Shown here piece after piece: positions 999 to 21,692 of a stretch of DNA of 26,482 nt. The DNA is from a virus. Positions within the stretch are counted from its first letter, which is position 1. Every line of letters starts with the position of its first letter. The stretch lies in the IMG/VR virus record IMGVR_UViG_3300029258_003539, positions 1-26,482 of that record, one strand, 5' to 3'. The translations under genes and the position numbers were made by a program. The notes under the pieces are model-generated. The model had not been told where the DNA came from. It saw nothing but the letters and a program-made list of their open reading frames with translations, and made no database searches.

Positions 999-2165
999 TT
1001 AGTTTGTATTTATACGCCACCATCTCTGCTTTACGGCGGACTGCGTGAATGTCCTATCTAATAATAGGCACTTCTCGTCTACCCATCCGCCTCCGCTCCC
1101 TTCGTCTATCGTCAGGTCCGCTATGTCACCCTGCTGGATATCGAACCCGATGTGGTAGGGCACGGCTACCGTTATGATATCATGCCTCATTGCGTTCCAG
1201 TCCAGGAACCTACTTAGGCAATTCTCGGCCTGAGCCTGTGTGGCACAATCCGGGCACTGGAAGGTCCTCTCTGGCTGCTCCTCGTAGGTAATATAGCTCA
1301 GTTTGCACTCCCTGTTATTAGTCCAGTCCCTTGTGAAGTTCCCGCTGTAGGACCCACCTGAAGGATTGTAGTGGATCTTCACCCTGTTGGTTACTAGGTC
1401 GAACGGGCTAAGCTCTATGATCGGGTTTGAGGCCAGATCCTCCATGACGATCCTATGACCGCTCTCCCCGAACTTGTCAAACGAATCCACCGCTATCTTT
1501 CCGTTTTTGTTGATCCTGACCGCGGACACCTCGGCCAGTATCCTGTCGATTACGTCGAAGATATCGGCCCCCTCGTCGATGGTCGTTGAGAAGCTAAATC
1601 CAGTTAGGAAGTCTTCCAGGTCTGCCAAAGATCCATGGTCGATCTGATCGGCATCCAACAGCGTTTGGGAGTCCAGTAGGTACTTGACGATAGCGGCGGG
1701 ATTCCCACTTATTGTTAAGTTATCTACCCACTTACCCTTAGTGGAGGCAAAGTCCAATATCTCGAAGGTGTATCGATCTTTCATATGGCTGATCTTGCGG
1801 AATGTCCCCTGAAACAGTGGGTAATCCTCCACGTCCGAGAAGTCCAGGCTTTTCGACCATGCCCAAATAGTCCCGTTGATCTCATGGATATACATGAACT
1901 TCTCGTAGTCCTGGAACCGTCCGTTGTTGTTCATAACTACACGGCACTTGGTCGATGGACACCTCCTTGAGCTTAGGTTAAAGCTGTTCACTACCTCTAT
2001 GCTATTTAGGATCAGGTCCTCAAACAGTAGGGAATCGTTTCCCGAATAACTAACGGACAGACCCCCACGACAGTTAGTCAGTCTCTTATGCCATCCGTCC
2101 AGTTCCAGGTCGATCAGGAAGAAGACTTCCTTGTCTTTCTCGAAAGCCGTACTTATGGTACTCAT
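999..2165 (-). CDS. Tail hub / tail-tip protein
   Basis: This is a protein of 388 residues if translation starts at MSTISTAFEK. The frame stays open 30 codons further upstream, but 2165 is preferred: its ATG overlaps the previous stop as ATGA and has GGAGG about 7 bases before it. The sequence is beta-rich. The C-terminal third resembles tail hub proteins, with an Ala/Gln-rich helix (about 300-320), then a stretch containing HIGFDIQQGD and a final strand ending RWWRINTN. A CPDC pair lies just before that helix, and SRRCPSTKC occurs near residue 70. It follows the large tail protein and precedes the lipoprotein, the normal place for a tail-tip or hub component in a siphovirus. No peptidase or lysozyme motif was recognised. 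Confidence 0.6.
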   Translation of the reverse strand: MSTISTAFEKDKEVFFLIDLELDGWHKRLTNCRGGLSVSYSGNDSLLFEDLILNSIEVVNSFNLSSRRCPSTKCRVVMNNNGRFQDYEKFMYIHEINGTIWAWSKSLDFSDVEDYPLFQGTFRKISHMKDRYTFEILDFASTKGKWVDNLTISGNPAAIVKYLLDSQTLLDADQIDHGSLADLEDFLTGFSFSTTIDEGADIFDVIDRILAEVSAVRINKNGKIAVDSFDKFGESGHRIVMEDLASNPIIELSPFDLVTNRVKIHYNPSGGSYSGNFTRDWTNNRECKLSYITYEEQPERTFQCPDCATQAQAENCLSRFLDWNAMRHDIITVAVPYHIGFDIQQGDIADLTIDEGSGGGWVDEKCLLLDRTFTQSAVKQRWWRINTN

Positions 2166-5100
2166 AGAACTTCCTCCAGCGTGATGTCTATCTCCTGAAC
2201 CTTCAACCACTTCGGCATCTGGCCCGCATCCCCCGTATGCTTTACTAAATAACAATCATACATTGTGGTACTGTCAGGGATCAGGGCCATATTCTTGCCC
2301 TCGGCGCAATTAAGTAATGACATGATCTCCCTCTTGATATCCTCGCTAGCCGGCCAATGTAGTGTGAAGATCCTTTTCCTGCCGGAGCCTCTTACCGGAA
2401 CCAGTCCACCATGCGGACTTCTTAGCATGGTTACCCCAAAGGTCTCCGCCCTGCCGTATCCGGCCATAGCGAATCCCCTGGTAGTCTCCACGGTCCTTCC
2501 AATAACCATTGCCCCAATCTGATAGTAGCCTTCCACTGTCTTCTGAGCCGGTATACTGATCCTCATATAACGGTAGTTACCTCCAGTAAATGTAATGGAC
2601 ATTTTCTTCTGGAAGATTGAGAATAGCCTACCGTTCTGGAACCTCGGACAGCCCTCCGCATCTACCATAATATGGTCCCCGTAGTTATCAAGAATCTTCC
2701 ACATCACTGTCTCGTCGCTACTCGCACTAGAACTACTACTCTGGCTGCTGCTTCCACTCGAGGAAGAGGAGCTCTCAGAGGAACTACTACTAGATGTACT
2801 GGAGGCCTTACTCGAGGAAGAGGAGCTCTCACTAGAGCTTGAACTGGTAGAGCTACTGGATGAACTGGTAGAGGAGCTACTCTCACTCGAAGAGGAACTA
2901 CTCTGACTACTACTCTGGCTACTGCTACTCGAAGACTCTGAAGAAGAACTCCTACTAGAACTACTGGACTTAGAGGAGCTGCTCTGACTTGAACTGCTGC
3001 TTGACTGCGATGAGGAGTATCTCTCGTCTCCATGCAATAGTAGCTTGGTCTGGGCGTCGGCAGTATGCGAAACTGTAGGAATAGTGATCGTATCGGTCAA
3101 TCCGCTATTCGGGCTTGCGCTGAATGGATTCCCGTGATAGATCCGGATGTCATGCATGTAGCCATCGAAATAGCTACTGCCACCACCGTATCTGCCAATT
3201 TCTAAAGGTCCATCAAACGTTGCCATGTTGGCATCACTTGTGTAAGCAGTCTGTTCACCATCTAAATAAATCCCATATAGATTCCCAACTTTACAAAGTG
3301 CCACATGATGCCAATTCGTATCTGTTATTTCTCCTCCATAACCAGTAGAAACAATGTTTGCCGCTCCATCTCGTATCCAAAACGCCAATCCGCTTCCATG
3401 CAAATGTTCAAATTGCCATCTATTATCGGCATCTTCATACTGATGAATATAATATTCTGCCCCCACATGATCTGTATGTTTTACCCATAAGTCAATAGTA
3501 AAATTAGTCTGAATATCCCAATCGGGACTATCCCCTCGAGTAATATAATCAGAAACTCCATTAAATGAGAAGAATCTTGAGGCCCATTGTGAGCTTGAGC
3601 TACTTGATTGGGAGCTACTGCTATGAGCGCTAGAGGAGGAGCTACTTGTTGAGGAGCTACTGGATTGAGATGAAGAGGAGGAGCTTACTGAACTTGATGA
3701 GGAGGAGCTCCTTGAGCTACTGCTTGATCTAGAACTGGAGGATGAGCTCTGTGACGAGCTGTGGCTAACTAATTTCAGATAGTAGTCGTCCATTAGTTCA
3801 TGCGCCTTGTAATCTTCTAATAGGGAAGAGTCAGCCAGTGTATTCCCGGCGTATGAGTCAATGGTGCCTAAAGCCAGGTCGAAGACTACAGCCTCGTCCA
3901 CTGGGGTGGTGGCGAAGTTGTCATCGCTCATCTGGAAGCGAAATCTTCTTATATTGCAGTTGAAGAACGCGGCCCCGTCGGCATAGAACTTCTTGCAGGC
4001 GCCCATATCTATAGTGATAGTACAGGCGATGTCATCCTGTTCACTCCTCCAGGGCTTACTCGGGCTGTCGGTTATCAGTTGCCGCATGCTATAATGGTAG
4101 TCCGGGGTGAAGGCCCAGTCGTCCCCTATAATTCCTTCTCCACCTCTCCAGGTAATCCAAGCATTACAGATTAGATGTTGGGGAATCCTATCAGTAGATA
4201 CATAGGTAGTGGCTGCATTTAGAATGGAGATAGCTTGCCATGCCCCAAATCTTTCTAGATAGATAGTATTACCATCAGTTTCATAATAAGCTACCCACAT
4301 TTCATGACCACCAACGAGGCATATATGTGGGTGTTTTTGATCACTGGAATGAGTAGTAAGAGATCCTTTCGAAGTCCAATTTGCTCCATTATCATTTGTT
4401 GAAAAGAGTTGAACCTGAGAAGTTGCAGTATCTATATATATAGCACAGAATATATCTTCATTACAATCCTTATAAAGTCTTGGCTTAAATAAATCATTAG
4501 CTACAAAATTAGCTACATTAATAGCTGCACCCCAAGTAGCTCCGTTATCCGTAGATATTTTACTTTTTATTTCAACATCATCAGCACTATCTTCATCAGT
4601 TTCATATACACATATGACCCATCCATTACTAGCTTGTTCGATAACAGGCCATTCCTGTTCATTAGCATCAGTAGCTATCTCTACAGCGACTCCAAATGTA
4701 AAACCACCATCATAGCTCTTCTTACATTTTATCTCATCACTATCCTCGTATACCCCTATAATTTGCCCATTATTTAGTTCAACTAAATCGTTAAAGGCAG
4801 AGCCATTTGTAGGAGTAATTTCCGTCCAACTATCTGCATTATTATCACTATAAAATATATTAGTTATATCTGAAAATGATAATAATATTCTCCCGGATTT
4901 AAGTACTATTAGACCACCAGGTTCATGATCCCCGGTATCTAATTGTATAGAAGATGACCAACTTAAACCTACTCCATTATCAGTAGTTGTCATATAATAG
5001 ACATTGGAGCCATCATTATATACACACAAAACTTCCTTATTTTTCATTTGAACTATAGCTACCGGATGAACTCCATTATCAGCCCCAGTTAATATAGAAC

Positions 5101-5629
5101 TACGACCGATTGCTTCGCCATCTCCATAATTTCTTCTTTCAAAGTAGACAGTTCCACCGTCATGGCTCCATTTAAAAGTGGCAGTACCTGTATCTCCTCC
5201 TGTTACTATCTCTATCCTGAAATCCCTGGTAGAGAAGGGAAGTGTCAAGGTATAGGCTATTCCATCCGTGATCTGCCCGCTGAAGGCGGCAGATACCGTA
5301 ACTGTTCCTGTACCATTGTCAAAGTCAGATATGGTCCTACTCTCCCCGGCATGCGGACCAGACGTAATCTCCACGGTCGCCCCTATCAGGAAATCATCTC
5401 CAAAGATGGTCAGATAGCTACTGACTATAGTGGTCCCACCAGCATTCCCGTTACCGGTGGCATACTTCCTGACAACCAGATCCTCGGGAGTCCTACTGGT
5501 GAAGGGAATTAACTGCCCGCTGTTATCACTTGCGGGAGTCGGCTGTGGCCAGAATTCCCCCTCTTGTTCTGTCGCTGAGGAGAAGTGGCTCTCTTCCAGT
5601 ATGTCTTCTGTGATTAGTTTTACGCTCAT
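2162..5629 (-). CDS. Large mosaic tail protein with Asp-box propeller, polyserine linkers and LamG-like domain
   Basis: This 1155-residue virion protein is probably a tail-tip receptor-binding or glycan-binding component. In order: an N-terminal beta domain (1-165); a region with Asp-box motifs spaced through about 155-420 (SHDGG, TTDNG, YSDNN, SYDGG, STDNGATW, STNDNGANW), as in sialidase-like beta-propellers; a discoidin-like segment (about 500-570, RFRFQMSDDNF); a Ser-rich linker (about 624-680); a LamG/concanavalin-like domain (about 681-850, FSFNGVSDYI and FTIDLWVKH); a second Ser-rich linker (about 872-971); and a C-terminal tail domain (973-1155, RYMRISIP and GYYQIGAMVIG). It starts after the tape measure gene and its stop overlaps the next start. 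Sialidase catalytic residues could not be assigned, so enzymatic activity is not claimed. Confidence 0.75.
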   Translation of the reverse strand: MSVKLITEDILEESHFSSATEQEGEFWPQPTPASDNSGQLIPFTSRTPEDLVVRKYATGNGNAGGTTIVSSYLTIFGDDFLIGATVEITSGPHAGESRTISDFDNGTGTVTVSAAFSGQITDGIAYTLTLPFSTRDFRIEIVTGGDTGTATFKWSHDGGTVYFERRNYGDGEAIGRSSILTGADNGVHPVAIVQMKNKEVLCVYNDGSNVYYMTTTDNGVGLSWSSSIQLDTGDHEPGGLIVLKSGRILLSFSDITNIFYSDNNADSWTEITPTNGSAFNDLVELNNGQIIGVYEDSDEIKCKKSYDGGFTFGVAVEIATDANEQEWPVIEQASNGWVICVYETDEDSADDVEIKSKISTDNGATWGAAINVANFVANDLFKPRLYKDCNEDIFCAIYIDTATSQVQLFSTNDNGANWTSKGSLTTHSSDQKHPHICLVGGHEMWVAYYETDGNTIYLERFGAWQAISILNAATTYVSTDRIPQHLICNAWITWRGGEGIIGDDWAFTPDYHYSMRQLITDSPSKPWRSEQDDIACTITIDMGACKKFYADGAAFFNCNIRRFRFQMSDDNFATTPVDEAVVFDLALGTIDSYAGNTLADSSLLEDYKAHELMDDYYLKLVSHSSSQSSSSSSRSSSSSRSSSSSSSVSSSSSSQSSSSSTSSSSSSAHSSSSQSSSSSSQWASRFFSFNGVSDYITRGDSPDWDIQTNFTIDLWVKHTDHVGAEYYIHQYEDADNRWQFEHLHGSGLAFWIRDGAANIVSTGYGGEITDTNWHHVALCKVGNLYGIYLDGEQTAYTSDANMATFDGPLEIGRYGGGSSYFDGYMHDIRIYHGNPFSASPNSGLTDTITIPTVSHTADAQTKLLLHGDERYSSSQSSSSSSQSSSSKSSSSSRSSSSESSSSSSQSSSQSSSSSSESSSSTSSSSSSTSSSSSESSSSSSKASSTSSSSSSESSSSSSGSSSQSSSSSASSDETVMWKILDNYGDHIMVDAEGCPRFQNGRLFSIFQKKMSITFTGGNYRYMRISIPAQKTVEGYYQIGAMVIGRTVETTRGFAMAGYGRAETFGVTMLRSPHGGLVPVRGSGRKRIFTLHWPASEDIKREIMSLLNCAEGKNMALIPDSTTMYDCYLVKHTGDAGQMPKWLKVQEIDITLEEVL
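2717..3016 (-). repeat. Second polyserine linker of the large tail protein
   Basis: About 100 codons encode runs of two to six Ser broken by single Gln, Glu, Lys, Arg, Thr, Ala or Gly. Both AGY and TCN serine codons are mixed. It separates the LamG-like domain from the C-terminal tail domain. Confidence 0.9.
3590..3760 (-). repeat. First polyserine linker of the large tail protein
   Basis: About 57 codons encode Ser runs interrupted by single residues (Gln, Arg, Val, Thr, Ala, His). It precedes the LamG-like domain, so that domain is held between two flexible linkers. Confidence 0.9.
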
Positions 5630-7973: not shown

Positions 7974-8246
7974 CTACTTTACCTTTTTCTTCTTTTTCTT
8001 CTTGTTGAACTTCTGCTTCCAGTCGTCAAGCTTATCTACCTTCTCGTCGCCTTTCAGCTGCTCCAGCTTCCAGTTTAAGCGATTTAAGACATCCTGTCCC
8101 TCGCTGGACATGGCTGCGTTGACGGAATGTATACGGTCCATCTTATCCTCTATCTTAACTATCTGCATGTTCCGGTACTTCCCCCAGAAGCGATCTGTCG
8201 GTAGGTCTAGGAGGAAGTCCTCACTGCACCCGTAGAAGTACTCCAT
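7974..8246 (-). CDS. Tail assembly chaperone T-part (frameshift extension)
   Basis: This reading frame holds 90 residues from the first ATG, but it has no ribosome binding site and stays open upstream to the slippery site at 8300-8306. It is therefore more likely made as the C-terminal part of a -1 frameshift product of the preceding gene: 115 codons of the first frame then 108 of this one, giving about 223 residues. The pair would correspond to lambda gpG/gpGT, which bind the tape measure and recruit tail tube subunits. The part is charged and helical and ends in a Lys-rich tail (KKKKKKK). It abuts the tape measure gene. No family was recognised from sequence alone; the call rests on position and frameshift geometry. 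Confidence 0.72.
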   Translation of the reverse strand: MEYFYGCSEDFLLDLPTDRFWGKYRNMQIVKIEDKMDRIHSVNAAMSSEGQDVLNRLNWKLEQLKGDEKVDKLDDWKQKFNKKKKKKKVK

Positions 8247-8674: not shown

Positions 8675-9178
8675 TTAACTCATGCTACCGAAAATATGAA
8701 ACACCTTGTCACCATTAGAACGACTATCGTCTATTAGGCCCTGCCAGTGGGCACCTATAATCCTGATCCCGTCGTTAGTGTACCCGAGGTCATCAATCGA
8801 GGCGCAGAAGGCCTTGTAGATCTGAATACCATCCGTATCACCACTCATCGGATCCAGGGTAAGTTTGCCAGTTGTAGCTGATGTACCTACTCTCTTACCA
8901 AAAGTCAGGTGTCCGGTCGGTGCGGCTACTGATTTCCCAGTCCACAATGTATCTGTATAATTCAACAGTGTGGCCTGCGCCAGTGGCGTAAAGGCTTCTA
9001 TGGTCGTTCCCATATCGACGCTATCCACGGGCACCATCCCATAATCGTCAACCATAATAGGGACCTGCTCCATGGTGATCGTAACAGTCACACCCCCTTG
9101 GGTATATCCCATATTGTGGTCACCGAAGTGTACCCGGCAGGTTCCAAGCTTTTTAATCTCTGTTATATTCTTTGCCAT
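8675..9178 (-). CDS. Major tail tube protein
   Basis: This 167-residue, beta-rich protein has the length and position of a siphovirus tail tube subunit. It opens with MAKNITEIKKLGTCRVHFGD, then a Gly/Thr/Val-rich strand region (GGVTVTITMEQVPIMVDDYG) and a Thr/Asp/Gly-rich middle, and ends with a conserved-looking strand (RIIGAHWQGLIDD). It would polymerise in hexameric rings around the tape measure. AAGGAG lies 6 bases before the ATG. A strong hairpin (9204-9223) lies between it and the upstream Ser-rich gene and may stabilise or process this highly expressed message. No sheath gene precedes it, which supports a non-contractile tail. Confidence 0.8.
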   Translation of the reverse strand: MAKNITEIKKLGTCRVHFGDHNMGYTQGGVTVTITMEQVPIMVDDYGMVPVDSVDMGTTIEAFTPLAQATLLNYTDTLWTGKSVAAPTGHLTFGKRVGTSATTGKLTLDPMSGDTDGIQIYKAFCASIDDLGYTNDGIRIIGAHWQGLIDDSRSNGDKVFHIFGSMS

Positions 9179-9235: not shown

Positions 9236-10858
9236 TTATACAGGCATCGGCCAGTTCGAGCTACTTGAGGAGCTCTCACTCGAGGAGCTACTCACGCTAC
9301 TACTTGAGCTACTCTCAGAGCTGCTGCTTGAGCTACTCTCTGAAGAACTGCTTGAACTTCTAGATGAAGAGCTCTTACTTGAACTACTCTGACTACTACT
9401 TGATTGTGAAGAACTACTCGAACTACTTTCAGAACTCGAAGAACTACTCTCAGAGCTAGAAGAACTTTCTGAACTCGAAGAACTGCTCTCCGAGGAACTG
9501 CTTGAGCTTCTAGATGAAGAGCTACTCTCACTTGAGGAGGAACTACTCTCAGAAGAGCTACTTGTAGAACTACTAGATTCCGAGGAACTGCTACTTACAC
9601 TCGAGGAGCTACTCACGCTACTACTTGAGCTACTTACACTTGAAGAACTACTGGATTCTGAACTACTCGAACTACTTTCTGAACTCGAAGAACTGCTCTC
9701 CGAGGAACTGCTCTCTGAGGAACTGCTACTCTCAGAGGAAGAACTACTCTCAGAGGAACTCGAAGATTCAGAAGAACTACTCGCAGAACTACTAGATTCC
9801 GAACTACTACTTGAACTCTCAGAGGAACTACTTGCTGAACTTGAAGATTTTGAAGAACTAGATGAGCTCTCACTTGAGCTGCTACTCTCTGAGGAACTGC
9901 TCGATTCTGAACTACTAGAACTACTCTCAGAACTTGAGGAACTACTCTCACTTGAGCTGCTACTCTCAGAACTACTACTTGAACTCTCAGAAGAACTACT
10001 ACTTGATTCTGAACTCGAACTACTCTCACTCGAGCTACTGCTCTCAGAACTACTAGATGAGCTTTCACTTGAACTACTACTTGACTTCGAAGAACTGCTA
10101 CTCTCTGAGGAACTGCTACTCTCTGAACTACTCGAGGAACTACTAGATTGAGAACTACTACTAGAGCTCTGGCTTGAAGAACTACTCTTAGAACTACTAG
10201 ACGAACTACTTTCACTCGAACTACTCGTAGAACTCGATGATTCTGAACTTGAAGAACTGCTTTCACTCGAACTACTCTCGCTAGAAGAGGAGCTACTCTT
10301 GCTCGAAGAAGAGCTCTTACTTGAGGATGAACTGCTCTCTGAACTGCTTGAACTACTCTCTGAAGAACTACTACTCTCACTTGAACTACTCGAACTCTCG
10401 GAACTACTGCTTGAACTCTCTGAAGAACTAGAACTACTTGAGCTACTTGAGCTACTTTCACTTGAAGAACTACTTGAATATTTAGAACTAGAAGAAGAAC
10501 TCTGTGAACTTGAAACACTACTAGAACTACTTGGATTAACTACCGTTACATTATTAGAACAGACATTACACCAGGCCCACCCATTCCACATATAGCAGGC
10601 CGAATCATGAACAGCATCGAAATCCACCAGAAGGGGTGAATTCAGAACATGATTGGTAATCGTCAAGCGTGCTCCATTCGTCGCATCGCTCATCCATATA
10701 CATTTCGTCTGCCCCCCAAAATCTCCATCCGGCAGAGTACAGTTAGGGGTATCTGAACCGGAATCGATCTCAGACTCACCGTAATTATTAAGGATCGTTC
10801 CGTTATACCTAACCAACTCATAATGCCAACAGGAAGGAGGCGTTATTTCAATCGACAT
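9236..10858 (-). CDS. Mucin-like Ser-rich repeat virion protein
   Basis: This 540-residue protein has two parts. Residues 1-109 form a possible folded domain with six Cys (10, 40, 53, 88, 97, 100) and Trp/Tyr-rich ends. Residues 110-534 are almost entirely Ser runs of three to eight, each broken by a single residue, most often Glu, also Lys, Gln, Val, Thr, Ala or Arg. It ends NWPMPV. AGGAGG sits 5 bases before the ATG. It lies between the tail terminator region and the tail tube gene, so it is probably a virion component, such as a tail or capsid fibre. Ser-rich tracts of this kind are classical O-glycosylation acceptors in bacterial Ser-rich adhesins, and a glycosyltransferase island lies in the same operon. 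Its exact role is unknown. Confidence 0.85.
   Translation of the reverse strand: MSIEITPPSCWHYELVRYNGTILNNYGESEIDSGSDTPNCTLPDGDFGGQTKCIWMSDATNGARLTITNHVLNSPLLVDFDAVHDSACYMWNGWAWCNVCSNNVTVVNPSSSSSVSSSQSSSSSSKYSSSSSSESSSSSSSSSSSSESSSSSSESSSSSSESSSSSESSSSSSESSSSSSKSSSSSKSSSSSSESSSSESSSSSSESSSSTSSSSESSSSSSSKSSSSSQSSSSSSQSSSSSSSSESSSSSESSSSSKSSSSSSESSSSSSESSSSSESSSSSESSSSSSESSSSSSESSSSSESSSSSSESSSSSSESSSSSESSSSSESSSSSSKSSSSASSSSESSSSSSESSSSASSSSESSSSSESSSSSESSSSSESSSSESSSSSSESSSSSSESSSSSSVSSSSSSVSSSSSVSSSSSESSSSTSSSSESSSSSSESSSSSRSSSSSSESSSSSSESSSSSESSSSSSESSSSSSSQSSSSQSSSSKSSSSRSSSSSSESSSSSSSESSSSSSVSSSSSESSSSSSNWPMPV
9257..10531 (-). repeat. Long Ser-rich low-complexity coding repeat
   Basis: About 425 codons encode degenerate units such as SSSSSE. 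AGT/AGC and TCN serine codons alternate irregularly, so the DNA is not a simple tandem repeat even though the protein is. This composition keeps other frames open, producing long spurious Leu/Glu-rich and Val/Arg-rich frames. Confidence 0.95.
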
Positions 10859-11268: not shown

Positions 11269-11718
11269 TCACCACTCACCCTGCAGCTTTTTCAGGATAT
11301 AACTGGCCCTGAACCTCATTACCTTTCTGAATGAATCTATTCTGCCGGTGGTCTCATGTATCTCGACTATATTGTCGTCGTACTCCTTCACTACTCTCAG
11401 GACCCTGTAGCTTGAAGTCGTAAAAGTACGATCCTTTAAGATTACTGTTATCCGCTCGGCCATATTGTCCCTATTGTCGGCGCTACTGCCGAAGCAGTTT
11501 ATGTCTATAGTCTGATCCTCATACTGGGTCGTCTGAATGTACTCGCTATCTATGATAGCCCCCGCTGAACTTACATTAAATGTGATAAATGGAGGAGTCA
11601 GATCCTCCGGTGGAAACTCATCATACAGTCGTGGATCAGAAGCGCTCCACCCCGTATAGGTCCTCAAAGTGACATCAGCCACCAGTGTATCATATATATA
11701 ATTCGCTATCTCTTTCAT
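11269..11718 (-). CDS. Tail terminator / tail completion protein
   Basis: This 149-residue alpha/beta protein has the size, order and layout of the family of proteins that cap the tail tube (gpU/DUF3168-like): an N-terminal helix (MKEIANYIYDTLVADVTLRT), then a strand with PPFITFNVSS, a turn, a middle strand (YEDQTIDINCFG), a helix (DNMAERITVILKD) and final strands (YRVLRVVKEYDDNIVEI). Its start overlaps the stop of the upstream gp10-like gene as ATGA. It lies at the end of the neck gene block, as expected for a protein joining tail to head. The family call rests on order plus the helix-strand layout. Confidence 0.7.
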   Translation of the reverse strand: MKEIANYIYDTLVADVTLRTYTGWSASDPRLYDEFPPEDLTPPFITFNVSSAGAIIDSEYIQTTQYEDQTIDINCFGSSADNRDNMAERITVILKDRTFTTSSYRVLRVVKEYDDNIVEIHETTGRIDSFRKVMRFRASYILKKLQGEW

Positions 11719-12685: not shown

Positions 12686-13305
12686 GCCCAGCCCACCACC
12701 TTCCGTCTATACCTATCTATAACGTTTTTCTGCCATTCCTCCTTTAGATCACCTCGGCTGTAGCTATAGTTTCCGATCCTCTCACTTTTAAATCCCAGAT
12801 TCTTCCGATGACTGTAGACCCATCCGACCAGGCTATTGCAGAGCAGTTTCAGATCATCCAACTCCTTAGTCCCAGAGGCATACCCGGCATTAAAAGTCAC
12901 CCTAACATTTTTAATTCCGACATCGAAGCCGTAGTCATAGAAAAGCATCCCACGGCTCTTATAAATCACATAGCCAGTGGAGCCATAGTAGTCTGTGTCA
13001 GTGGCAGCAGTGACTGTATCTCCACTTATAACCAGGGTAGTCACGCTGTTTATCGGGTACTGCCTGAGGTGAAGCTTCTTCTTCCCGGTCCCATCATACC
13101 TGGCGTTCTCATAATCTGTATCAGGATCATAGTCCTGGGCCACCAGATTCCTGTCGGTCTCCTTTTCTATGAAACTACTACTCTGGTTGATCAGCTTCCT
13201 GAATAGCTCATGATCACTATCGTCAACATCGCTCAGTCCCAGGAACTCCTTCACGTCATCTATATCGGACAGGGCATTATCATTAAGAGTTGTTGGTACA
13301 CCCAT
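12682..13305 (-). CDS. Head-tail connector (gp6-like adaptor)
   Basis: This 207-residue protein has an N-terminal helical part characteristic of gp6-like/adaptor proteins (DIDDVKEFLGLSDVDDSDHELF, then a helix with NQSSSFIEKETDRNL), a beta middle (KLHLRQYPINSVTTLVISGD) and a helical C-terminus with KLLCNSLVGWVYSHRKNLG. Such proteins sit under the portal and connect the head to the neck. GGAGGAG lies 4 bases before the ATG, inside the end of the upstream GT9-like gene, which it overlaps by 23 bases. The sugar island is therefore joined tightly to the neck block. Confidence 0.8.
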   Translation of the reverse strand: MGVPTTLNDNALSDIDDVKEFLGLSDVDDSDHELFRKLINQSSSFIEKETDRNLVAQDYDPDTDYENARYDGTGKKKLHLRQYPINSVTTLVISGDTVTAATDTDYYGSTGYVIYKSRGMLFYDYGFDVGIKNVRVTFNAGYASGTKELDDLKLLCNSLVGWVYSHRKNLGFKSERIGNYSYSRGDLKEEWQKNVIDRYRRKVVGWA

Positions 13306-14425
13306 AGGTCTCCTCCATCAATTCTTTCTTCCATGGTCTCCAGTGGACAAACTTCATCCTTTTTACTGCAAGCTGCTCGGATAGTGAACCTGAAAAATCA
13401 GATTTGATCAGCTCGGGAAGGTACTCCCGGACCTCGGTAAACACCATCTCAGGCTTCAGGGCCTCCATACACTTCCACTCCTCACAGACGTGGAACCTCG
13501 GGCTGGCCTGGCAGGGAGCACACGGCATCGGACTCCTTATGATCCTATGATCCTTATTGTAAGGACCATTCTTACTGACCAGAGTAGGCCCGAATAGTAC
13601 TATCATCGGGATATCATGAGCATCAGCCACATGCATCAGGCCGGTGTCCGTAGTGATGAATAGGTGGCACTGCCTAAGCATATGGATGGTTTCCATCATA
13701 TTCATATTATTCACGCAGTCCACCACATTGTAGGCCCTCTCCGACATCTCCCTGCCCCATTTCTTCTCCCGGTCTCCTTTTCCGAACAGGAAGATCCTAA
13801 ACTTGCTATGTCCGAAGAATCGGTTCAAAAGATCGATCAGCTCGCCGAAATAGGGCCAGCCCTTCCTCTCCCACTTCCAAGTAGAGCCCTCAAATAGGCC
13901 ATTACACAGTCCTACTTTCAGGCTCAGCATATCTTTGTTGGTGGGATTCTCATAGATATTCAGACTTCTCTGACCCTTCGGACAGTACAGGGAGGGGACA
14001 TCCTTAATGTATCCCAGCCTGTAGACCTCGTTCATGTAGGAGTCTACCTCGTTCAGCTTCTCTGCTCTCCAATTTACTGGCTCAGCGTCATATCCTGCAT
14101 ACTTCTCGAAGTAGTAGTAGGCATCCGATGTCTCGCCATGCCTCGAGTAGAACAACTGCTCATACTTATCCTTATTGAAGGTATTATCGAATTCGACTAT
14201 TTCGTTTACCAGGGGCCATTTGTTGCACAGCTCCCTCACGGAATCGGTCCGGCTGTCTGACCAATTAGGATCCAGGACTATGTCGACTTTGGCATTGTGC
14301 ATTTCGCACAGGGCCTTTATCGCCGGAGTCAGCATGATGAAATTCCCGATCCCATTCCTAAAGTAAACAGCCACTAAGTTCTCAGGAGTACTTCCAGGGA
14401 TCTTCCTTGTCCTTCTCTTAGGCAT
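13283..14425 (-). CDS. GT9-family (heptosyltransferase-like) glycosyltransferase
   Basis: This 380-residue protein matches the ADP-heptose:LPS heptosyltransferase family (GT9, GT-B fold). The N-terminal domain has VYFRNGIGNFIMLTPAIKAL, the family's glycine-rich start, then AKVDIVLDPNWSD. The C-terminal domain has the donor-binding signature FITTDTGLMHVADAHDIPM followed by IVLFGPT (about 250-280). A Cys-rich segment (CAPCQASPRFHVCEEWKC) follows. GT9 enzymes add heptose or related sugars to an acceptor from a nucleotide-sugar donor. In a phage head operon the acceptor is unknown: virion protein or host surface polysaccharide. Its start overlaps the preceding GT4-like gene by 8 bases. Confidence 0.88.
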   Translation of the reverse strand: MPKRRTRKIPGSTPENLVAVYFRNGIGNFIMLTPAIKALCEMHNAKVDIVLDPNWSDSRTDSVRELCNKWPLVNEIVEFDNTFNKDKYEQLFYSRHGETSDAYYYFEKYAGYDAEPVNWRAEKLNEVDSYMNEVYRLGYIKDVPSLYCPKGQRSLNIYENPTNKDMLSLKVGLCNGLFEGSTWKWERKGWPYFGELIDLLNRFFGHSKFRIFLFGKGDREKKWGREMSERAYNVVDCVNNMNMMETIHMLRQCHLFITTDTGLMHVADAHDIPMIVLFGPTLVSKNGPYNKDHRIIRSPMPCAPCQASPRFHVCEEWKCMEALKPEMVFTEVREYLPELIKSDFSGSLSEQLAVKRMKFVHWRPWKKELMEETYGCTNNS

Positions 14426-15521
14426 CCGGAGCCCCGTACCTGCGGCCTCGGGCTATCATGGACCTTCGTCTATTGATATCCTCTGTAGATTGAAAGACGT
14501 TGTTATCCCTCTTCCTGGATAGCAGTCCCTTAAACAGATCTACCATCATCTTCATATTGATTTTCCGATCCCCCAGGCTTCTTATCTTCTTTCTTCCCTT
14601 CATCGATATAGTCTCCAGCTTCTTACGTCCCTCTTTTGATCCAACAAGGCTCAGGATCTTCTCCACAGAATCCGACACGGACTCTATAATAAAACCCGTC
14701 TCTCCATCCTTCAGGTAGTCGACCATCCCGCTCAGTTCCTCGTCTGCCCCGAATAATACGCATCCGCAGAGCATAGCCTCCTCGGGAGGCATATGGAGCC
14801 CCTCACTCTTAGTTGGAGCCAGCCATAGATCAACCTTGTTGTAGAAGACCTTAAGCTCATCTGGTGTTGGCTGCATCAAGTAGCTACTGCATTCCAGATC
14901 CTCCGGCTTCTCCTCCGTCCCGAATAGATGAAGCCTGACGTTCAGGCCCTGATCTTTCAATCCCTTGACTATCTCCGGAACCCACTCAAACCGCTTCCTT
15001 GGTTTACCATTATACAGAGCCCCGATGGACCACTGCTTCTTAACCGCCCAGTTCCTAGTCCTCGTCGGCTTAAAGAGATCAGTATCTGTCCCCGGCCTAA
15101 TGATCGGGCAGAACTTATTCATCCTTGACTTAATAAACTTCTGTAGACACAGGCCATTAACTATCAGATTTATATTCGAGTTCCTGTAATTGGCAAATAG
15201 CTGATTCTCGTCAGCGTTCCAAGTCTCATGTGCCCGTATCCACCAGTACTTCTCGCCCTTCTCTACCGGGGCTCTTACTACATTCCTGACTGACTTGACA
15301 CCGGTGGCTATTAGTATATCAGCGTCCGGGTATTCCAAAGTAGATCCAGTCTCGAACCACTTGGGTCCATTAAGCTTAAACCAAGTAAACTCATTAGGCA
15401 TGTTGGATACTACAAAGACCTGGTGGCCCAATGAACTCAGGGTATTGGCCGAATGGAACAGTGTGGCCGTACCCCCATTATTCCCGGCGCCTACGCTCTG
15501 AAGATTGAATGTAATTTTCAT
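14418..15521 (-). CDS. GT4-like glycosyltransferase
   Basis: This 367-residue GT-B fold glycosyltransferase starts MKITFNLQSVGAGNNGGTAT, a typical N-terminal acceptor loop (GG-x-A), continues with a Rossmann-like strand (HQVFVVSN), and carries the GT4 donor motif at about 239-250 as APTKSEGLHMPPEEAMLCGC, where the two Glu residues lie about seven apart. A C-terminal basic extension of about 40 residues (RRRSMIARGRRYG) is unusual and may bind a partner or membrane. A GAGGAG site lies 6 bases before the ATG. The enzyme transfers a sugar from a nucleotide donor; donor and acceptor cannot be told from the sequence. It is followed closely by the GT9-like gene. Confidence 0.82.
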   Translation of the reverse strand: MKITFNLQSVGAGNNGGTATLFHSANTLSSLGHQVFVVSNMPNEFTWFKLNGPKWFETGSTLEYPDADILIATGVKSVRNVVRAPVEKGEKYWWIRAHETWNADENQLFANYRNSNINLIVNGLCLQKFIKSRMNKFCPIIRPGTDTDLFKPTRTRNWAVKKQWSIGALYNGKPRKRFEWVPEIVKGLKDQGLNVRLHLFGTEEKPEDLECSSYLMQPTPDELKVFYNKVDLWLAPTKSEGLHMPPEEAMLCGCVLFGADEELSGMVDYLKDGETGFIIESVSDSVEKILSLVGSKEGRKKLETISMKGRKKIRSLGDRKINMKMMVDLFKGLLSRKRDNNVFQSTEDINRRRSMIARGRRYGAPDA

Positions 15522-15531
15522 CTTATTCTCC

Positions 15532-16203
15532 TCATAAAATTTTATTTGAATTTTTCAGCCCATCATAATCATAACTCAACTTCAACAGGCTGATCGGGCA
15601 TCCTCTCCACCGGTACATGAAAGCCCTGGAGGAGTTCACCCTTCCCCATCTCTTTCCGATCTTACTCCTTGTTATCTCACTTGTATAAAGAGGATCCAAA
15701 TTGCAGAATTCGAAGATCCTTCTAAGCGTATAGAAAGTCCTTGTGACCAATGACTCATAGGAGACGATCAGGGTATCCTTTATCTTGCTTAGATCCTTTA
15801 TTATTGTCGGGATAACGAAGTCCTGAATCCTCATGATCTCCTCTTCATTGTAATTATAGCCCCTCTTCCTTCCAAACTTGCCATTACTGATGGCCACATC
15901 GATCGGGTGCCTGACTAGGTATATGATCCTGGTCCTATCCTTCCATAGTTTTCTCCACTCCTTGATATAGTGAAGTATACCATTAGCTGAGTTTGAGAAG
16001 AAAGGGACCTTATCTCCCCATGTGGTATTATATGGGTCCACGATCTTATTCTTCCTTAGATAGGATTCTCTCTGCCGCTCGTCAAAGCCCTTGTTTAGAA
16101 TCTTCTCTTCATGAAAGATCTTTATTATATCAGGATGCTTCTCCATCAGCTCCCTAGTTAACGTGGTCCCACTACGCTGAAAACCGGCGATCAATATAAT
16201 CAT
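15532..16203 (-). CDS. Sulfotransferase-family protein
   Basis: This protein has 223 residues from the ATG at 16203, which has GAGGAG about 8 bases upstream; the frame also has a TTG one codon earlier. It has the PAPS-binding signatures of the sulfotransferase superfamily: the 5'-phosphosulfate loop GFQRSGTT near the N-terminus, WGDKVPF with the conserved Lys about 80 residues in, and the 3'-phosphate motif YLVRHPIDVAISNGKF (about 124-140). It is basic and short compared with many carbohydrate sulfotransferases, so some acceptor-binding elements may be missing. It overlaps the end of the upstream glycosyltransferase by 32 bases. The target is unknown; sulfated glycans on the virion are one possibility. 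Confidence 0.82.
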   Translation of the reverse strand: MIILIAGFQRSGTTLTRELMEKHPDIIKIFHEEKILNKGFDERQRESYLRKNKIVDPYNTTWGDKVPFFSNSANGILHYIKEWRKLWKDRTRIIYLVRHPIDVAISNGKFGRKRGYNYNEEEIMRIQDFVIPTIIKDLSKIKDTLIVSYESLVTRTFYTLRRIFEFCNLDPLYTSEITRSKIGKRWGRVNSSRAFMYRWRGCPISLLKLSYDYDGLKNSNKIL

Positions 16204-17230
16204 CAATTCTGCTCCTCAGGTAGTCGGCTGCATGCTTAGTAGTCAGATTGTTTTCATAGTACTTCCTTGGGCTATACTGATCCCGACTAACGAGGACCTC
16301 CTCTACGGTCTCCCAGAAATTCACTTTACTAGCTATCTTTCCTGTCTCCGGCGTAATATACTTCTTATATAGAAACTCAAGTTCATTCAGTACCACTATC
16401 GGAATATCAGAGGCCAGTAACTCAGGAATTACTCTTGGATTCGAATCCCAGGACATACCGTAGAATCCAGTCTTTCCCTCAGATGCTACAATACCTACCT
16501 CGCACTTCTGCATATTCCTACTGACTTCCTTTCTTAATACTCTCTTACTCTTTACATTAGCTGGCACTTCTATATTCTCGTCCATTACCGGGCCACCTAA
16601 GTTCAATACCCTAAGATAAGAAGGAACAGTAGAATATATAAATGAATGACCCTTCCGATTTGAGCTTCTTCCATCGGCCGGATAGCAGACATTGTACTCC
16701 TTCACTACATCATCCATCTTATAGAATAGGTTATCGGCGGCCGGCTTAAAGAATATCTGAACCTCAGCGTTCGGAAATTCCCTCTGTGTAATTTCCTTTT
16801 GTCTCATGGAGTCAACTAGGATCATATCATAATCCATGAAGGACTTGAAGATAGGCAGAAATCTCTTTCCGGCCCCATAGTAGATCTTGATAGCCTTCTT
16901 GTACCTCTGTAGTACCGGATGATAGTCCCTAAATCCTCCCCTGCAGAATATTATGTCGGGCTCTATGCCACTCTCGAAGTTGTCAAACCAAGTCGTAAAG
17001 TATTCTTTTAAGTTGGGCGTGTACTTCTTCTCTCGGTCTTCCTGCCAGTAGTACTCTTCACCCTTTTTCGGATCACCCCTCCAGTACCAGATCTCCCCCT
17101 TATCTTCTCTCTTTAATAGTCCATTAAAGAGATGGGTCCACATATCATCACATTCCTCAAGAGAATCAAATATGATCTCACTTGGATCCCTGTCCTGAGG
17201 AACCTGGCCCCTCAGCATCAGAAAGTTCAT
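16172..17230 (-). CDS. Probable GT-B glycosyltransferase (CgeB/GT1-like)
   Basis: This 352-residue protein has a GT-B-like layout. The N-terminal half holds a Trp/Tyr-rich part (WYWRGDPKKGEEYYWQ) and a Rossmann-like strand (PDIIFCRGGFRD). The middle has YDMILVDSMRQKEI, then EVQIFFKPAADNLF. The C-terminal half has YNVCYPADGRSSNRKGH, then VGIVASEGKTGFYGMSWDSNPRVIPELLASDIPIVV, the donor-domain pattern of family 1/CgeB-like enzymes (given here only as key blocks). The start overlaps the WbqC-like stop as ATGA and its end overlaps the sulfotransferase start. I regard the GT call as likely but the family as unproven. Confidence 0.68.
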   Translation of the reverse strand: MNFLMLRGQVPQDRDPSEIIFDSLEECDDMWTHLFNGLLKREDKGEIWYWRGDPKKGEEYYWQEDREKKYTPNLKEYFTTWFDNFESGIEPDIIFCRGGFRDYHPVLQRYKKAIKIYYGAGKRFLPIFKSFMDYDMILVDSMRQKEITQREFPNAEVQIFFKPAADNLFYKMDDVVKEYNVCYPADGRSSNRKGHSFIYSTVPSYLRVLNLGGPVMDENIEVPANVKSKRVLRKEVSRNMQKCEVGIVASEGKTGFYGMSWDSNPRVIPELLASDIPIVVLNELEFLYKKYITPETGKIASKVNFWETVEEVLVSRDQYSPRKYYENNLTTKHAADYLRSRIDDYIDRRFSA

Positions 17231-17913
17231 TTCTCTCCTCTGATAATCCCCAAACTACTTCCACCATGATTAAACAATAGATCCAGTATAGACATATGAG
17301 GCTGGAACTCCCCATACTGCTGCTTGTACTCTGGATGGTTAAAGCTCTCAAAGATTACCTTTATACCGGCATCCTTATAGGCATCAAGGTCCATATAGTT
17401 CTTCCCTCCAGGACCAGATAGATAGGCGTCCCCGCCGACAGCCTTGATTAATTCTATGATTCTTTTATCCGGCTGCCTCGTCTTCACCTCCAGGTCGCTA
17501 GCCTGGTACTCGTCAGTGACGATCCCCAGTAATTCCTTGATCCTATTGATGACCTCTATATTTAGAATGGACAGCCTATCCCACTTCTCGCTGAAGGCCC
17601 ACCTGATTGCAGACATAATATCATTGTAGTACTCGGACTTACTGTAATACTTCTCTATAGACTTACGGTGCTTACTCTGCCACTTGATTCCATCGTCTAT
17701 CTCTATATCCTTTATAAGCGACTTATAGCTATTGTAGACTACGGGGACAGTCAGCCAGTGCCATCCATTCTCGCTCTTGATCCTGTTCCTATTCTGGAAC
17801 TCACTCTTCCTGAACTGCACCGTATCCAAATGGATGAAGGCGTCTGCCCTATCCATCTTGTAGAAGTATCCCAGCCAGGGCATGTACTGTGGCTGATGTA
17901 TTGCTACTATCAT
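17227..17913 (-). CDS. WbqC-like protein
   Basis: This 228-residue protein begins MIVAIHQPQYMPWLGYFYKM, the hallmark of the WbqC family found in O-antigen and other surface-sugar gene clusters. It continues with FIHLDTVQFRKSEFQNRNRI and, later, a glycine-rich segment AYLSGPGGKNYMD (about 170-183), both typical of the family. Length is normal for the family. The biochemical role of WbqC proteins is not well defined; an aminosugar acyl-transfer function has been suggested. Start and stop codons overlap the neighbouring genes as ATGA, so it is co-translated with them. Its presence supports surface-sugar biosynthesis as the purpose of the island. Confidence 0.88.
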   Translation of the reverse strand: MIVAIHQPQYMPWLGYFYKMDRADAFIHLDTVQFRKSEFQNRNRIKSENGWHWLTVPVVYNSYKSLIKDIEIDDGIKWQSKHRKSIEKYYSKSEYYNDIMSAIRWAFSEKWDRLSILNIEVINRIKELLGIVTDEYQASDLEVKTRQPDKRIIELIKAVGGDAYLSGPGGKNYMDLDAYKDAGIKVIFESFNHPEYKQQYGEFQPHMSILDLLFNHGGSSLGIIRGEK

Positions 17914-18617
17914 TTCTTCGGCTCCTCTAGTTTTCCCCTCACTCCGTATTCGACTATGTCAGCCACAACCTTCCCCATCTTCCACTTCTTCCATTTTATA
18001 TTCCTATTGATCGCATCCCACTGGGTCGTAAAGAAATGACGGACTGCTACATTAATGTCTCTCATATTGGGAACGGCTTTCTCATTATCCGTTATCCCAG
18101 GATTATGAGGATCATATAGAAATCCAGTATGCGGAGGCAATGCAGGCACATGCTGCCTCACCCGATCATTATATTGATAGGCGCACTCATGACATCGACA
18201 GACATATTCGAGCATAGCCTTTAGGTAGCTCTCGCTTATATAGGTCGACTTCATGTTTCTGTAAGCCCCAATAGATTGATTCTTATGCTTGACATCGTAG
18301 AACTCCAAGACATCGAAATCCTTTATATAATTCTCTATCTCCTTAAATGGATCTCTCTCTGGATGCATAAACTTCATATCATCATGCATAAAGAAGACTC
18401 CACTCTCTCCATTCCAGGCATTCTTCAGGTAGAAATCATACTTATACATATCTAATCCTATGTTAGCAGCCGGAATAAAAGTGACATTCTTATATGATTC
18501 AGCGGGATTCTCTCTATCGCCACTGGCAATCGAATGAATATTATGGTCAGGAGCATATCTATCTAAGACCTGATAGACATCTTCCCAGAAGTAATGACCT
18601 ACAGCGCATACGTTCAT
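17910..18617 (-). CDS. Probable glycosyltransferase (GT-A-like, HDD motif)
   Basis: This protein has 235 residues if translation starts at MNVCAVGHYFW. The frame extends 5 codons further upstream to a GTG, but the GGAG motif lies about 9 bases before the ATG at 18617. It has alternating hydrophobic strands and helices, an internal GVFFMHDDMKFM block whose DD may coordinate a metal and nucleotide sugar, as in GT-A folds, and a helix-rich end. A block SIASGDRENPAESYKN precedes it. I do not recognise the family with certainty. Its neighbours (WbqC-like, GT-like genes) and the ATGA overlap with the next gene point to the same pathway. Confidence 0.6.
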   Translation of the reverse strand: MNVCAVGHYFWEDVYQVLDRYAPDHNIHSIASGDRENPAESYKNVTFIPAANIGLDMYKYDFYLKNAWNGESGVFFMHDDMKFMHPERDPFKEIENYIKDFDVLEFYDVKHKNQSIGAYRNMKSTYISESYLKAMLEYVCRCHECAYQYNDRVRQHVPALPPHTGFLYDPHNPGITDNEKAVPNMRDINVAVRHFFTTQWDAINRNIKWKKWKMGKVVADIVEYGVRGKLEEPKK

Positions 18618-18644
18618 CTCAAATTTCTCCACTTCTTACTGTTT

Positions 18645-19196
18645 TTATAGTGCAAGGCCTTGGCAGTCAATCCACCAATCAGTTCCAGTATGTTGTCTCC
18701 TCTTTCTAAAATCCCTTAAGACCTTCCAATTCAGCTTCTCCTTGACTTGCTTCTTTATATAGTTCAAGAAGTTATATGTCCTATCATTATACACAAAGCC
18801 CCAGAAGCAGGCGATGACCGGCATCTTATCGAAATGATCCCTTGTGCTGAGAAGGACATCCCCATCGAATAGGTCAAACACCCTGAATGGATCTTCTTTT
18901 ACGACCATATCGGCGTCCATCGAGAGTACCCTGTCACCCTCTTTATAATCAAATTTTAAATAACTCTCTACCCTTATCTGGGCTCTCTTCCCGTCCCAAT
19001 CCCTATCGTTGTAGGTGATCTTCTTTTTTGGCCCAGAGAGACTATCGTAGAAAGGGATATTTCCAAGTTCAACTAGATGAAGCTCAAATTTAGAATACTT
19101 ATATAGGCTCTCTATAAGATCCTGGAAAGGCTTCTGGTAGTTTGAGCTAACCATCACATGAATGATATTACGGCTTAAACCATTTTCCATCTTCAT
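18645..19196 (-). CDS. Probable GT-A glycosyltransferase (GT8-like)
   Basis: This 183-residue protein resembles the N-terminal part of a GT-A transferase: a strand and helix with IIHVMVSSNYQKPFQDLIES, a second strand with FELHLVELG, and the metal-binding DxD block VLSMDADMVVKEDPF at about residues 90-105, followed by a Phe-rich segment with VIACFWGFVYND. It is short for GT8, so the C-terminal domain may be reduced. The start is uncertain: ATG at 19196 has only a weak motif, and a second ATG at 19190 is also possible. It overlaps the upstream sulfotransferase-like gene by 29 bases. Confidence 0.65.
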   Translation of the reverse strand: MKMENGLSRNIIHVMVSSNYQKPFQDLIESLYKYSKFELHLVELGNIPFYDSLSGPKKKITYNDRDWDGKRAQIRVESYLKFDYKEGDRVLSMDADMVVKEDPFRVFDLFDGDVLLSTRDHFDKMPVIACFWGFVYNDRTYNFLNYIKKQVKEKLNWKVLRDFRKRRQHTGTDWWIDCQGLAL

Positions 19197-19713
19197 CTCG
19201 TATGAACTGCCTGATACTTGGAATATTAAGATTGAGTCCTGACCACTCCGATAAACTCGTAAGAGCCCTCTCAGGCTTTACCATCAGTAGTGACGTAGAT
19301 ACGACTATAAAATCATTTCCAGCTACGTCATAAAAGATCTTCCTGTATTCTGCCTTTGCCGCCTCCCTCGGATCGTCCATGGAGCAGTGATTTCTGGACA
19401 CCATACTCCTGGTATGACTGTAGAGTTCCCTGACAGTAATTATATACCTGACGTTAAATCCCAGGTCCTTAAGGCCATCCCTCGACAGTGATAGTGGCTC
19501 CCACCTACTCTCGTCCCTCTCATGTGGCATACTCCTCCAGATAACAATGTCTCCATTTTTCGGGAGCCTATCCTTTATGGTCTCTACCAAGATAGAATTA
19601 TAGATCCTTCTGAGACCAAACAGTGGATCAGCTACTCCTGCGGACCTGAAAATCTTGGTCATCAGCCTCGTACCGCTCGACTCTGGTCCTATAACGAAAT
19701 AGGCAGTCCTCAT
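19168..19713 (-). CDS. Sulfotransferase-like P-loop protein
   Basis: This 181-residue protein starts MRTAYFVIGPESSGTRLMTK, where PESSGTR fits the 5'-phosphosulfate-binding loop of sulfotransferases. Further on, RYIITVRELYSHTRSMVSRN (about 90-109) fits the 3'-phosphate motif with Arg and Ser. It then has a strand with DFIVVSTSLLMVKPE. It is shorter than the second sulfotransferase-like gene and lacks the obvious WGDK block. The start overlaps the upstream glycosyltransferase as ATGA. The function is predicted from two motifs only; another P-loop transferase or kinase is possible. Confidence 0.68.
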   Translation of the reverse strand: MRTAYFVIGPESSGTRLMTKIFRSAGVADPLFGLRRIYNSILVETIKDRLPKNGDIVIWRSMPHERDESRWEPLSLSRDGLKDLGFNVRYIITVRELYSHTRSMVSRNHCSMDDPREAAKAEYRKIFYDVAGNDFIVVSTSLLMVKPERALTSLSEWSGLNLNIPSIRQFIRDEDGKWFKP

Positions 19714-20819
19714 ACTAACCTATCCAATCCATGATAATAATACCATATGGCCTTCCAGAATGAGTAAGGCCCCTGCTCTATAAAGTACCGGAACTTATCC
19801 CTTGACCACTCCTCGTCCTCTATGTGAAACACCTTGAAACTCTTTATTCCCATATTCTCGTTCATGATGGGCTTACACCCGCACAGGAGCCCCTCGGCTA
19901 TCGTCCTACCACAGGCCTCATAGGCCCTTGGCAAATGCATTGTATAAGTGGCCCTGTTGTATATCTCCGGAAGCTGTTCGTTCTCCACTAAGGGAAAGAC
20001 CTTCACGTTGTCCAGCTGCTTCATCGCGTCAGCTATGTTCTGGTGCTCCCTTGTGTAGATCTCGAACTTCAATTTCTTCTTCCCCATGATGAACTGGAGC
20101 ACATTGTAATAGCCCTTCTGGGCGTATAATCGCCCGCAGGTGTTGACAACCAGCTTGGGGTCTCTCTCTATACCCTCCAGAATCCTGAACTTCCTTGTAT
20201 CAATCGCTGGAGGTAATAGATAATAAGGATCGATCCCATCCCCCAGCTTTTCCCTATGATTCCTCTCCTGAAAGGGACTGATGAACACATTTAAAAAGGA
20301 ATGCTTAAACAACAGTCTAGCCAATTTGATCCTGCTATCGGCTCCTATAATCTCCCTGTGATCATGCTCATATTTGACATAGGGCTTTTTGTACTCGAAG
20401 ATCAGATCCAGTATAAAGTGGAACTGATCAGGCTTAAAGAAGAAGAAGTTGTTGATCACCAGGAAGTCGCAGGCTATCAGGGCTTTCTTGTCGAAGTTAC
20501 TCGGCGTGAAGGTCTGGAACAGATAGCCGAACTCCCTTCCGGCCCTCTTCACCACCTCATTGCTCAATTCGGCCCCACCGTAAACCTCCGTGTCCTGTAC
20601 CCATCCTACTAAAGGTCTCTTCCCCACCAGCTTCCGGCTTTCGGGTCTCTCCCTCTTTTCCTTCTCCCTTAGATTCTTATCAACCAGAGGATTATCGAAG
20701 CTGGTCACCGGGATGGCCTTCCCCTGTCTCATCAGGTTGGCTCCGGCCGTATCCGACACCTCATAGAGGTCCAGGCCGAACCGCTGGATCATGGCCCTAT
20801 CTGTATATCGAATCTTCAT
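19710..20819 (-). CDS. GT4-like glycosyltransferase with unusual N-terminal extension
   Basis: This 369-residue GT-B-type protein opens the sugar island. Residues 1-40 (MKIRYTDRAMIQRFG...GKAIPV) look unlike a GT start and resemble small phage head-module domains; the transferase begins at about residue 70 with GWVQDTEVYGGAELSNEV (GGAE loop). The donor-binding domain has VVNTCGRLYAQKGYYNVLQF and then a pattern with HLPRAYEACGRTIAEGLLCG (about 300-320), where the two Glu residues are about seven apart, as in GT4 enzymes. The next gene starts in its stop as ATGA. Donor and acceptor are unknown. Confidence 0.82.
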   Translation of the reverse strand: MKIRYTDRAMIQRFGLDLYEVSDTAGANLMRQGKAIPVTSFDNPLVDKNLREKEKRERPESRKLVGKRPLVGWVQDTEVYGGAELSNEVVKRAGREFGYLFQTFTPSNFDKKALIACDFLVINNFFFFKPDQFHFILDLIFEYKKPYVKYEHDHREIIGADSRIKLARLLFKHSFLNVFISPFQERNHREKLGDGIDPYYLLPPAIDTRKFRILEGIERDPKLVVNTCGRLYAQKGYYNVLQFIMGKKKLKFEIYTREHQNIADAMKQLDNVKVFPLVENEQLPEIYNRATYTMHLPRAYEACGRTIAEGLLCGCKPIMNENMGIKSFKVFHIEDEEWSRDKFRYFIEQGPYSFWKAIWYYYHGLDRLV

Positions 20820-21133: not shown

Positions 21134-21592
21134 TTAACCGGTAGCCGGATTCTTATTGTAAGTAACCGTGCTCTCGTTGGCTGTCTGGTAGATCGGCTCA
21201 CGCCTTGACCTATCAAAGTTGCCGTGGCAAGTAAAGGCCAGACTGGCCCCCGCTACCGTCATCACTAAGTGTATGTATCTCTGGAGGTCCCTGATCTCGG
21301 CGATCCACAGAGTATTGGTATCCCAAGCCATCTGACTACAGGTGGCAAAGGAAGTCAGAGCTCCTGAAACATCCCCGGTATGGATCACTATATCCAGGGT
21401 AGCACCCGTTGTAATGGTACCACTCATATTTACAACCAGGAGCATGTTGGTGGGGATCTCCCTACCACTCCAGACCGCTCCGGCCGGTCCGGCCCTGAGG
21501 TCAAACTCGGTGCTGGTATAGGCAGCAGCAGTCCTCGTGACCGGATGCTCAAAAACTACTATTCGCTCATTGGCGCATCTATCTCTTCTCAT
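21134..21592 (-). CDS. Probable capsid decoration protein, copy B
   Basis: This 152-residue beta-rich protein is closely related to copy A: roughly 60% identity by eye, with identical ends (MRRDRCANERI at the start, SRREPIYQTANE and TVTYNKNPATG at the end). The middle has GREIPTNMLLV, GATLDIVIHTGDVSG and IAEIRDLQRYI in conserved order. Two copies right after the capsid gene suggest small, abundant capsid proteins that cover or stabilise the shell. The ATG at 21592 has AAGGAGG about 10 bases upstream, better placed than the GTG three codons before it. The family is not named; a Bbp16-like stabilising protein is one guess. Confidence 0.6.
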   Translation of the reverse strand: MRRDRCANERIVVFEHPVTRTAAAYTSTEFDLRAGPAGAVWSGREIPTNMLLVVNMSGTITTGATLDIVIHTGDVSGALTSFATCSQMAWDTNTLWIAEIRDLQRYIHLVMTVAGASLAFTCHGNFDRSRREPIYQTANESTVTYNKNPATG

Positions 21593-21692
21593 AACTATCA
21601 CCCCTCCTTAGGGTCTTCTTTCCGTTTGCAGTTTGATCAGTGCGGGCCGGAACGAAAGGTCAAGAAAACAACCCACACTGATGCACGATTGC
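21593..21692 (-). promoter_or_regulatory. Structured leader of decoration gene, copy B
   Basis: This is a 100-nt leader, homologous to 22162-22261 with no gap. On the minus strand an 11-bp stem pairs ATCAGTGTGGG with CCCGCACTGAT (21672-21682 and 21636-21646), including one U-G pair, around a 25-nt loop. A second small hairpin, ACCCT/AGGGGT (21600-21614), holds the AAGGAGG site. The loop contains CCTT, which could pair with the AAGG of the ribosome binding site. A translational control element is inferred. Confidence 0.7.

Follow-up and report, generated by a model that had tools for sequence, protein, structure and literature searches.

Our results revealed that an uncultivated tailed phage encodes a protein that is mostly serine and carries, in its structural operon, a cluster of sugar-transferring enzymes. 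The same pairing recurs in about ten unrelated lineages of uncultivated phages. This suggests that phages make their own sugar-coated, mucin-like virion appendages, although no glycan has yet been shown.

A Ser-rich protein among the tail genes

The window analysed here is one whole linear virus record of 26,482 bases, probably a fragment, with its convincing genes on the minus strand. Family searches placed it as a siphovirus-like head-to-tail operon: protease, HK97-type major capsid protein (23097-24383, phrog_10 1e-45), HNH endonuclease (22242-23000), a tandem pair of similar phrog_427 proteins of unknown function (21134-21601 and 21700-22170), a nine-gene sugar island, head-tail adaptor, neck, tail terminator (11269-11718, phrog_176), a 111-aa protein, the Ser-rich protein, an Ig-domain/tail-tube-like protein (8675-9178, phrog_2175 4e-15), chaperone-like genes, tape measure, a 1155-aa LamG protein and a probable hub. 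Note that the hub and the chaperones were assigned by position. A small ORF between the chaperone-like gene and the tape measure (7974-8246, minus strand) ends in a run of Lys codons (NKKKKKKKVK), a possible slippery site for a tail-assembly chaperone frameshift.

The sequence-only reading had described a 540-residue protein with a 109-residue Cys-containing head and about 425 residues of Ser runs broken mostly by Glu, in an operon with several transferases. This description was confirmed in both coordinates and content. The ORF at 9236-10858 (minus strand) encodes 540 aa and starts with ATG preceded by a strong ribosome-binding site, GGGATAGGAGGTTAATATG. Residues 1-109 (10532-10858) form a head with Cys at positions 10, 40, 53, 88, 97 and 100. 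Residues 110-534 (9257-10531) hold 359 Ser (84%), broken by Glu (42) and then by Lys, Val, Gln, Thr, Ala and Arg. The runs are mostly 4-7 long, 60 of 66 being of 4-6, and only six residues (NWPMPV) follow the tract. Scans with the tube, the adaptor or the head domain gave no relatives, and searching phage records with the Ser protein and its head gave none either; the single-sequence AlphaFold model of the head was too poor to use (pLDDT 46) and was not searched.

Next, we asked whether the tract could be a young microsatellite, and the codon diversity ruled out this possibility. All six Ser codons are used (AGY 56%), mixing AGY and TCN, which cannot be exchanged by one silent change, and identical neighbouring Ser codons are rarer than in codon shuffles (61 against 76, sd 6.6). 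Thus, the tract is a protein-level feature. However, the longest internal exact repeat (39 bp against about 20) shows that it grew by duplicating segments. Matches to the tract pattern were 0 in shuffled sequences.

Two further Ser tracts, missed by the sequence-only reading, are present in the 1155-aa tail protein encoded after the tape measure (2162-5629, minus strand). These tracts, of 61 aa (residues 622-682; 3584-3766) and 102 aa (residues 872-973; 2711-3016), flank a LamG domain (3134-3559; PF13385 2e-17) as a plain linker would. This protein may be a distal-tail protein with inserted carbohydrate-binding modules.

The sugar island

The nine genes of the island, all on the minus strand, lie between the capsid-side genes and the head-tail adaptor. 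Four families are clear. The gene at 13283-14425 encodes a GT9-family, heptosyltransferase-like glycosyltransferase (PF01075 8e-18, 65 bits against a curated cut-off of 22; PDB 1psw 2e-6) with a CxxC-x8-C-x4-C cluster at residues 302-319. The gene at 14418-15521 encodes a GT4-family enzyme (PF13692 1e-10), whose best but weak PDB match is Gtf1 (4pqg, 9e-4). A sulfotransferase is encoded at 15532-16206 (PF13469 5e-13) and a WbqC-family sugar-pathway protein at 17227-17913 (PF08889 4e-74). The remaining assignments are weaker. A second GT4-like enzyme is encoded at 19710-20819 (PF00534 1e-4, below cut-off) and a probable GT-A-type nucleotide-sugar transferase at 18645-19196 (PF03407 0.003, below cut-off; LSMDADMVV motif). 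The protein at 19168-19713 is only weakly sulfotransferase-like, with an N-terminal P-loop-like GPESSGTRL and no family match, and that at 16172-17230 (352 aa) has no family match and is of unknown function.

The gene at 17910-18632 also lacked a family match, but relatives were found with tblastn (6e-17 to 3e-9). The five-sequence alignment gave a usable model (pLDDT 71, pTM 0.77), which aligned to GT-A glycosyltransferases over about 175 residues (VIA Z about 12.5). Foldseek agreed, with low TM-scores. Note that a shared fold shows the class of the enzyme, not its substrate. The model also aligned with GtrB among many GT-A enzymes, and a lipid-linked seroconversion system was therefore considered, but no membrane partner was recognised.

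Co-occurrence of Ser tracts and GT9-type islands

Co-occurrence of the Ser-rich gene and the island across related phages had been proposed in advance as a way to challenge the pairing. To examine this, we scanned 2.9 million viral contigs with a codon-aware Ser-tract pattern; the first viral scan was not exhaustive. Twenty records with regular in-frame tracts were compared with thirty that matched the DNA pattern without such a tract. GT4 matches were found in 8/20 and 0/30, and GT2 matches in 7/20 and 1/30, respectively (Fisher p 0.0002 and 0.005). Since several of the twenty are close relatives and relatedness was not corrected for, these values are optimistic. In cellular genomes, a Glu-broken Ser pattern gave 89 stretches in 84,980 genomes, but only three held a regular in-frame tract by our test, against most of the 18 viral stretches. 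The Ser patterns are biased to the codons of this genome, and the thresholds for tracts differed slightly between scans (21/30 Ser, 19/30 Ser, or 24/30 Ser+Thr).

The GT4 matches led to one protein of 750-900 aa, with a GT9 half and a GT4 half, which occurs with poly-Ser genes in five records. This fused enzyme is 52-63% identical between phages (81% for one close pair), whose poly-Ser genes have different breaker residues. Across the records examined the breakers differ (Glu, Lys/Arg, His, Gln) while Ser is constant. The fused enzyme has no match in 50,697 deposited phage records, so the system would have been missed by work on isolates.

In the reverse direction, scanning with the fused enzyme found 22 close relatives, of which 17 lie in records with a Ser tract; the five without include fragments of 6.7, 10 and 21 kb. 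Clustered at 75% identity, these form 11 lineages, ten with a tract, or six of seven without the four seed lineages used to build the profile. Two of these records (G102 and G106) have irregular tracts, G106 a weak one, so a strict count is five of seven or fewer. Tract and enzyme are on the same strand in all 16 loci where both are within 10 kb, in some 0-11 bp apart, and in loci L249/L250 and L255 they abut or overlap. In L236 and L250, from two unrelated phages, the sugar island is sandwiched between two poly-Ser genes. In locus L235 (6526-7900), a head-only paralog lies next to the head-plus-Ser-tail protein, suggesting that the Ser tail is an add-on to a decoration-type protein. The structural genes of these records, all of them metagenomic fragments, belong to different head families, so the pair sits on unrelated tailed-phage backbones.

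As controls, we analysed eighty loci around related capsid genes (876 kb), in which only two, L122 and L084, hold convincing Ser/Thr tracts. In both, a relative of the HNH endonuclease of the window also lies downstream of the capsid gene. L122, the nearest capsid relative with a tract, has a Ser/Thr-tailed protein right after its capsid gene and shares its capsid with L293, whose record carries a GT4 upstream. Eight longer capsid relatives have GT4 islands without GT9 and without a tract (one of them, G054, reaches 23 Ser in 40 residues, below threshold). GT9 was also absent from 12 control records. Thus, the association is with GT9-type islands (17/22 records against 0/8), not with transferases in general. 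The converse exception is G011, a 54-kb record with recognisable head and tail genes, a poly-Ser/Glu tract between folded parts of a tail-spike-like protein, and no transferase family among 25 ORFs.

We next asked how the window relates to these islands. Its separate GT9 and GT4 genes are not orthologs of the fused enzyme: equating them was tested and rejected, since no significant profile match was obtained and they are only superfamily-level relatives. Equating the gene at 18645-19196 with a conserved gene found beside poly-Ser genes was likewise rejected by profile comparison, although both weakly match PF03407. However, accessory families are shared. Among 50 tested records, the GT-A family of the window occurs only in four, all carrying the fused enzyme (G107 by its GT9 half in an 852-codon frame) and Ser-rich tracts, and the only two viral WbqC relatives found lie in Ser-tract records, one of which (G007) was reached independently by the Ser pattern. 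The window therefore looks like a variant of the same kind of module.

Interpretation and comparison with known systems

The proposal of the sequence-only reading, a glycan-coated fibre on the virion, is partly supported. The pairing is more than coincidence. The outcome named beforehand as fatal to it, either part occurring alone as a rule, was seen only for the different, GT4-only kind of island in capsid relatives and in the one long poly-Ser phage without transferases. We consider it most likely, with a probability of about 0.58, that the gene encodes a virion appendage in which a small Cys-containing head docks to the particle (neck or tail) and carries a disordered Ser tail. In this view, the tail would be O-glycosylated on Ser in the host cytoplasm by the phage's own island: one transferase would prime Ser, the others extend, and the sulfotransferase(s) and the WbqC protein decorate. 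The result would be a stiff, hydrated, anionic glycan brush, up to about 150 nm if fully extended, useful for shielding, spacing, or weak binding to surfaces and mucus. What the analysis demonstrates is the sequence, the operon, the recurrent genetic pairing and the transferase families or folds of island genes; the location in the virion, glycosylation itself and the identity of the glycan, Ser as the acceptor, the order of sugar transfer and the benefit are inferred. Since no relative of the head was found, docking rests on gene position only, a fibre shape was not shown, and no mass or structure data exist. It is about as likely as not that a mobile module, poly-Ser carrier protein plus GT9-type island, is spread across unrelated uncultivated tailed phages and builds mucin-like glycoproteins on virions with a new cytoplasmic Ser-O-glycosylation machinery (the fused GT9-GT4 enzyme and the new GT-A family). 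Phages are usually thought of as bare protein. A recurrent phage-borne mucin system would bear on how they stick to mucus and surfaces, resist proteases and hold tail lectins at a distance, and would add a new set of candidate Ser-glycosylating enzymes. Searches of the open-access literature found no paper on phage poly-Ser proteins with transferases.

The main rival, which we consider unlikely, is that the tract is an unmodified, flexible and soluble linker or tail, and that the island acts on something else (capsid, tail tube or host envelope). In support of this, Ser tracts flank the LamG domain in the same phage, G011 has its tract without transferases, and polyserine regions separate domains in Saccharophagus enzymes (PMC2386152). 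In the 540-aa protein, however, the tract links nothing, and a spacer does not explain the recurrent, same-strand pairing with GT9-type islands. Linker and glycosylated-brush roles may coexist in this phage. Less likely still, the island could glycosylate other virion proteins (capsid, tail tube) as in mycobacteriophages, with poly-Ser proteins merely travelling with such phages. The position of the island would fit this, capsid and tail-tube glycans are reported for mycobacteriophages (Freeman 2023, as cited in PMC12619734), and GT4-only islands exist in capsid relatives without Ser tracts. Against it, only the GT9-type islands go with Ser tracts, and some poly-Ser genes abut or overlap the fused transferase gene. 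Finally, it is very unlikely that the island remodels host surface polysaccharide (superinfection exclusion or receptor masking) while the Ser-rich protein is an unrelated adhesin or decoration. GT9 and WbqC families are typical of LPS and O-antigen clusters, and the NCBIfam heptosyltransferase II model was matched (5e-17). However, the genes lie inside the late structural operon, no flippase, polymerase or membrane GtrA/GtrB was recognised in the window, and the pairing is not explained.

Among known systems, the serine-rich repeat adhesins of Gram-positive bacteria, with linked GtfA/GtfB and accessory transferases, share with the window a long Ser-rich tract and dedicated transferases encoded beside it. 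They differ in that the window pair lies in a phage late operon, and in that no Gtf model was among the NCBIfam matches of ten proteins, only the weak similarity to Gtf1 being seen. Read by eye, the N-terminus of the Ser-rich protein, MSIEITPPSCWHYELVRYNG, has no hydrophobic stretch, so that no signal peptide is evident, the C-terminus shows no cell-wall anchor, and no accessory Sec gene was recognised in the record. The BAHT family (TibC/AAH) comprises GT9-like enzymes that put heptose on Ser, not Thr, of autotransporters (PMC4358343). A four-Cys cluster is needed there for assembly; one follows the GT9 core in the window enzyme, in a comparable place, and a Cys-rich stretch does so in the fused enzymes. 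This is a lead only, since the spacing differs and such clusters may be common in GT9 enzymes. The window GT9 is not a member of that family (TIGR04414 score 16.8, cut-off 200), and the acceptor there is a beta-helix, not poly-Ser.

The transferases of mycobacteriophages (Che8, Rita and others) are also phage-encoded, as they are here, and are thought to act on virion proteins (PMC11256854, PMC12619734); glycans on virion proteins were not measured in our analysis. There the targets are capsid and tail-tube C-termini, and no poly-Ser carrier protein is described in these papers in the parts consulted. The polyserine linkers of Saccharophagus and Teredinibacter enzymes are likewise long Ser tracts, and the protein at 2162-5629 resembles them in that its tracts flank a carbohydrate-binding-type domain. 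The tract of the 540-aa protein, in contrast, does not separate two folded domains: it is terminal and Glu-broken, and comes with a transferase island.
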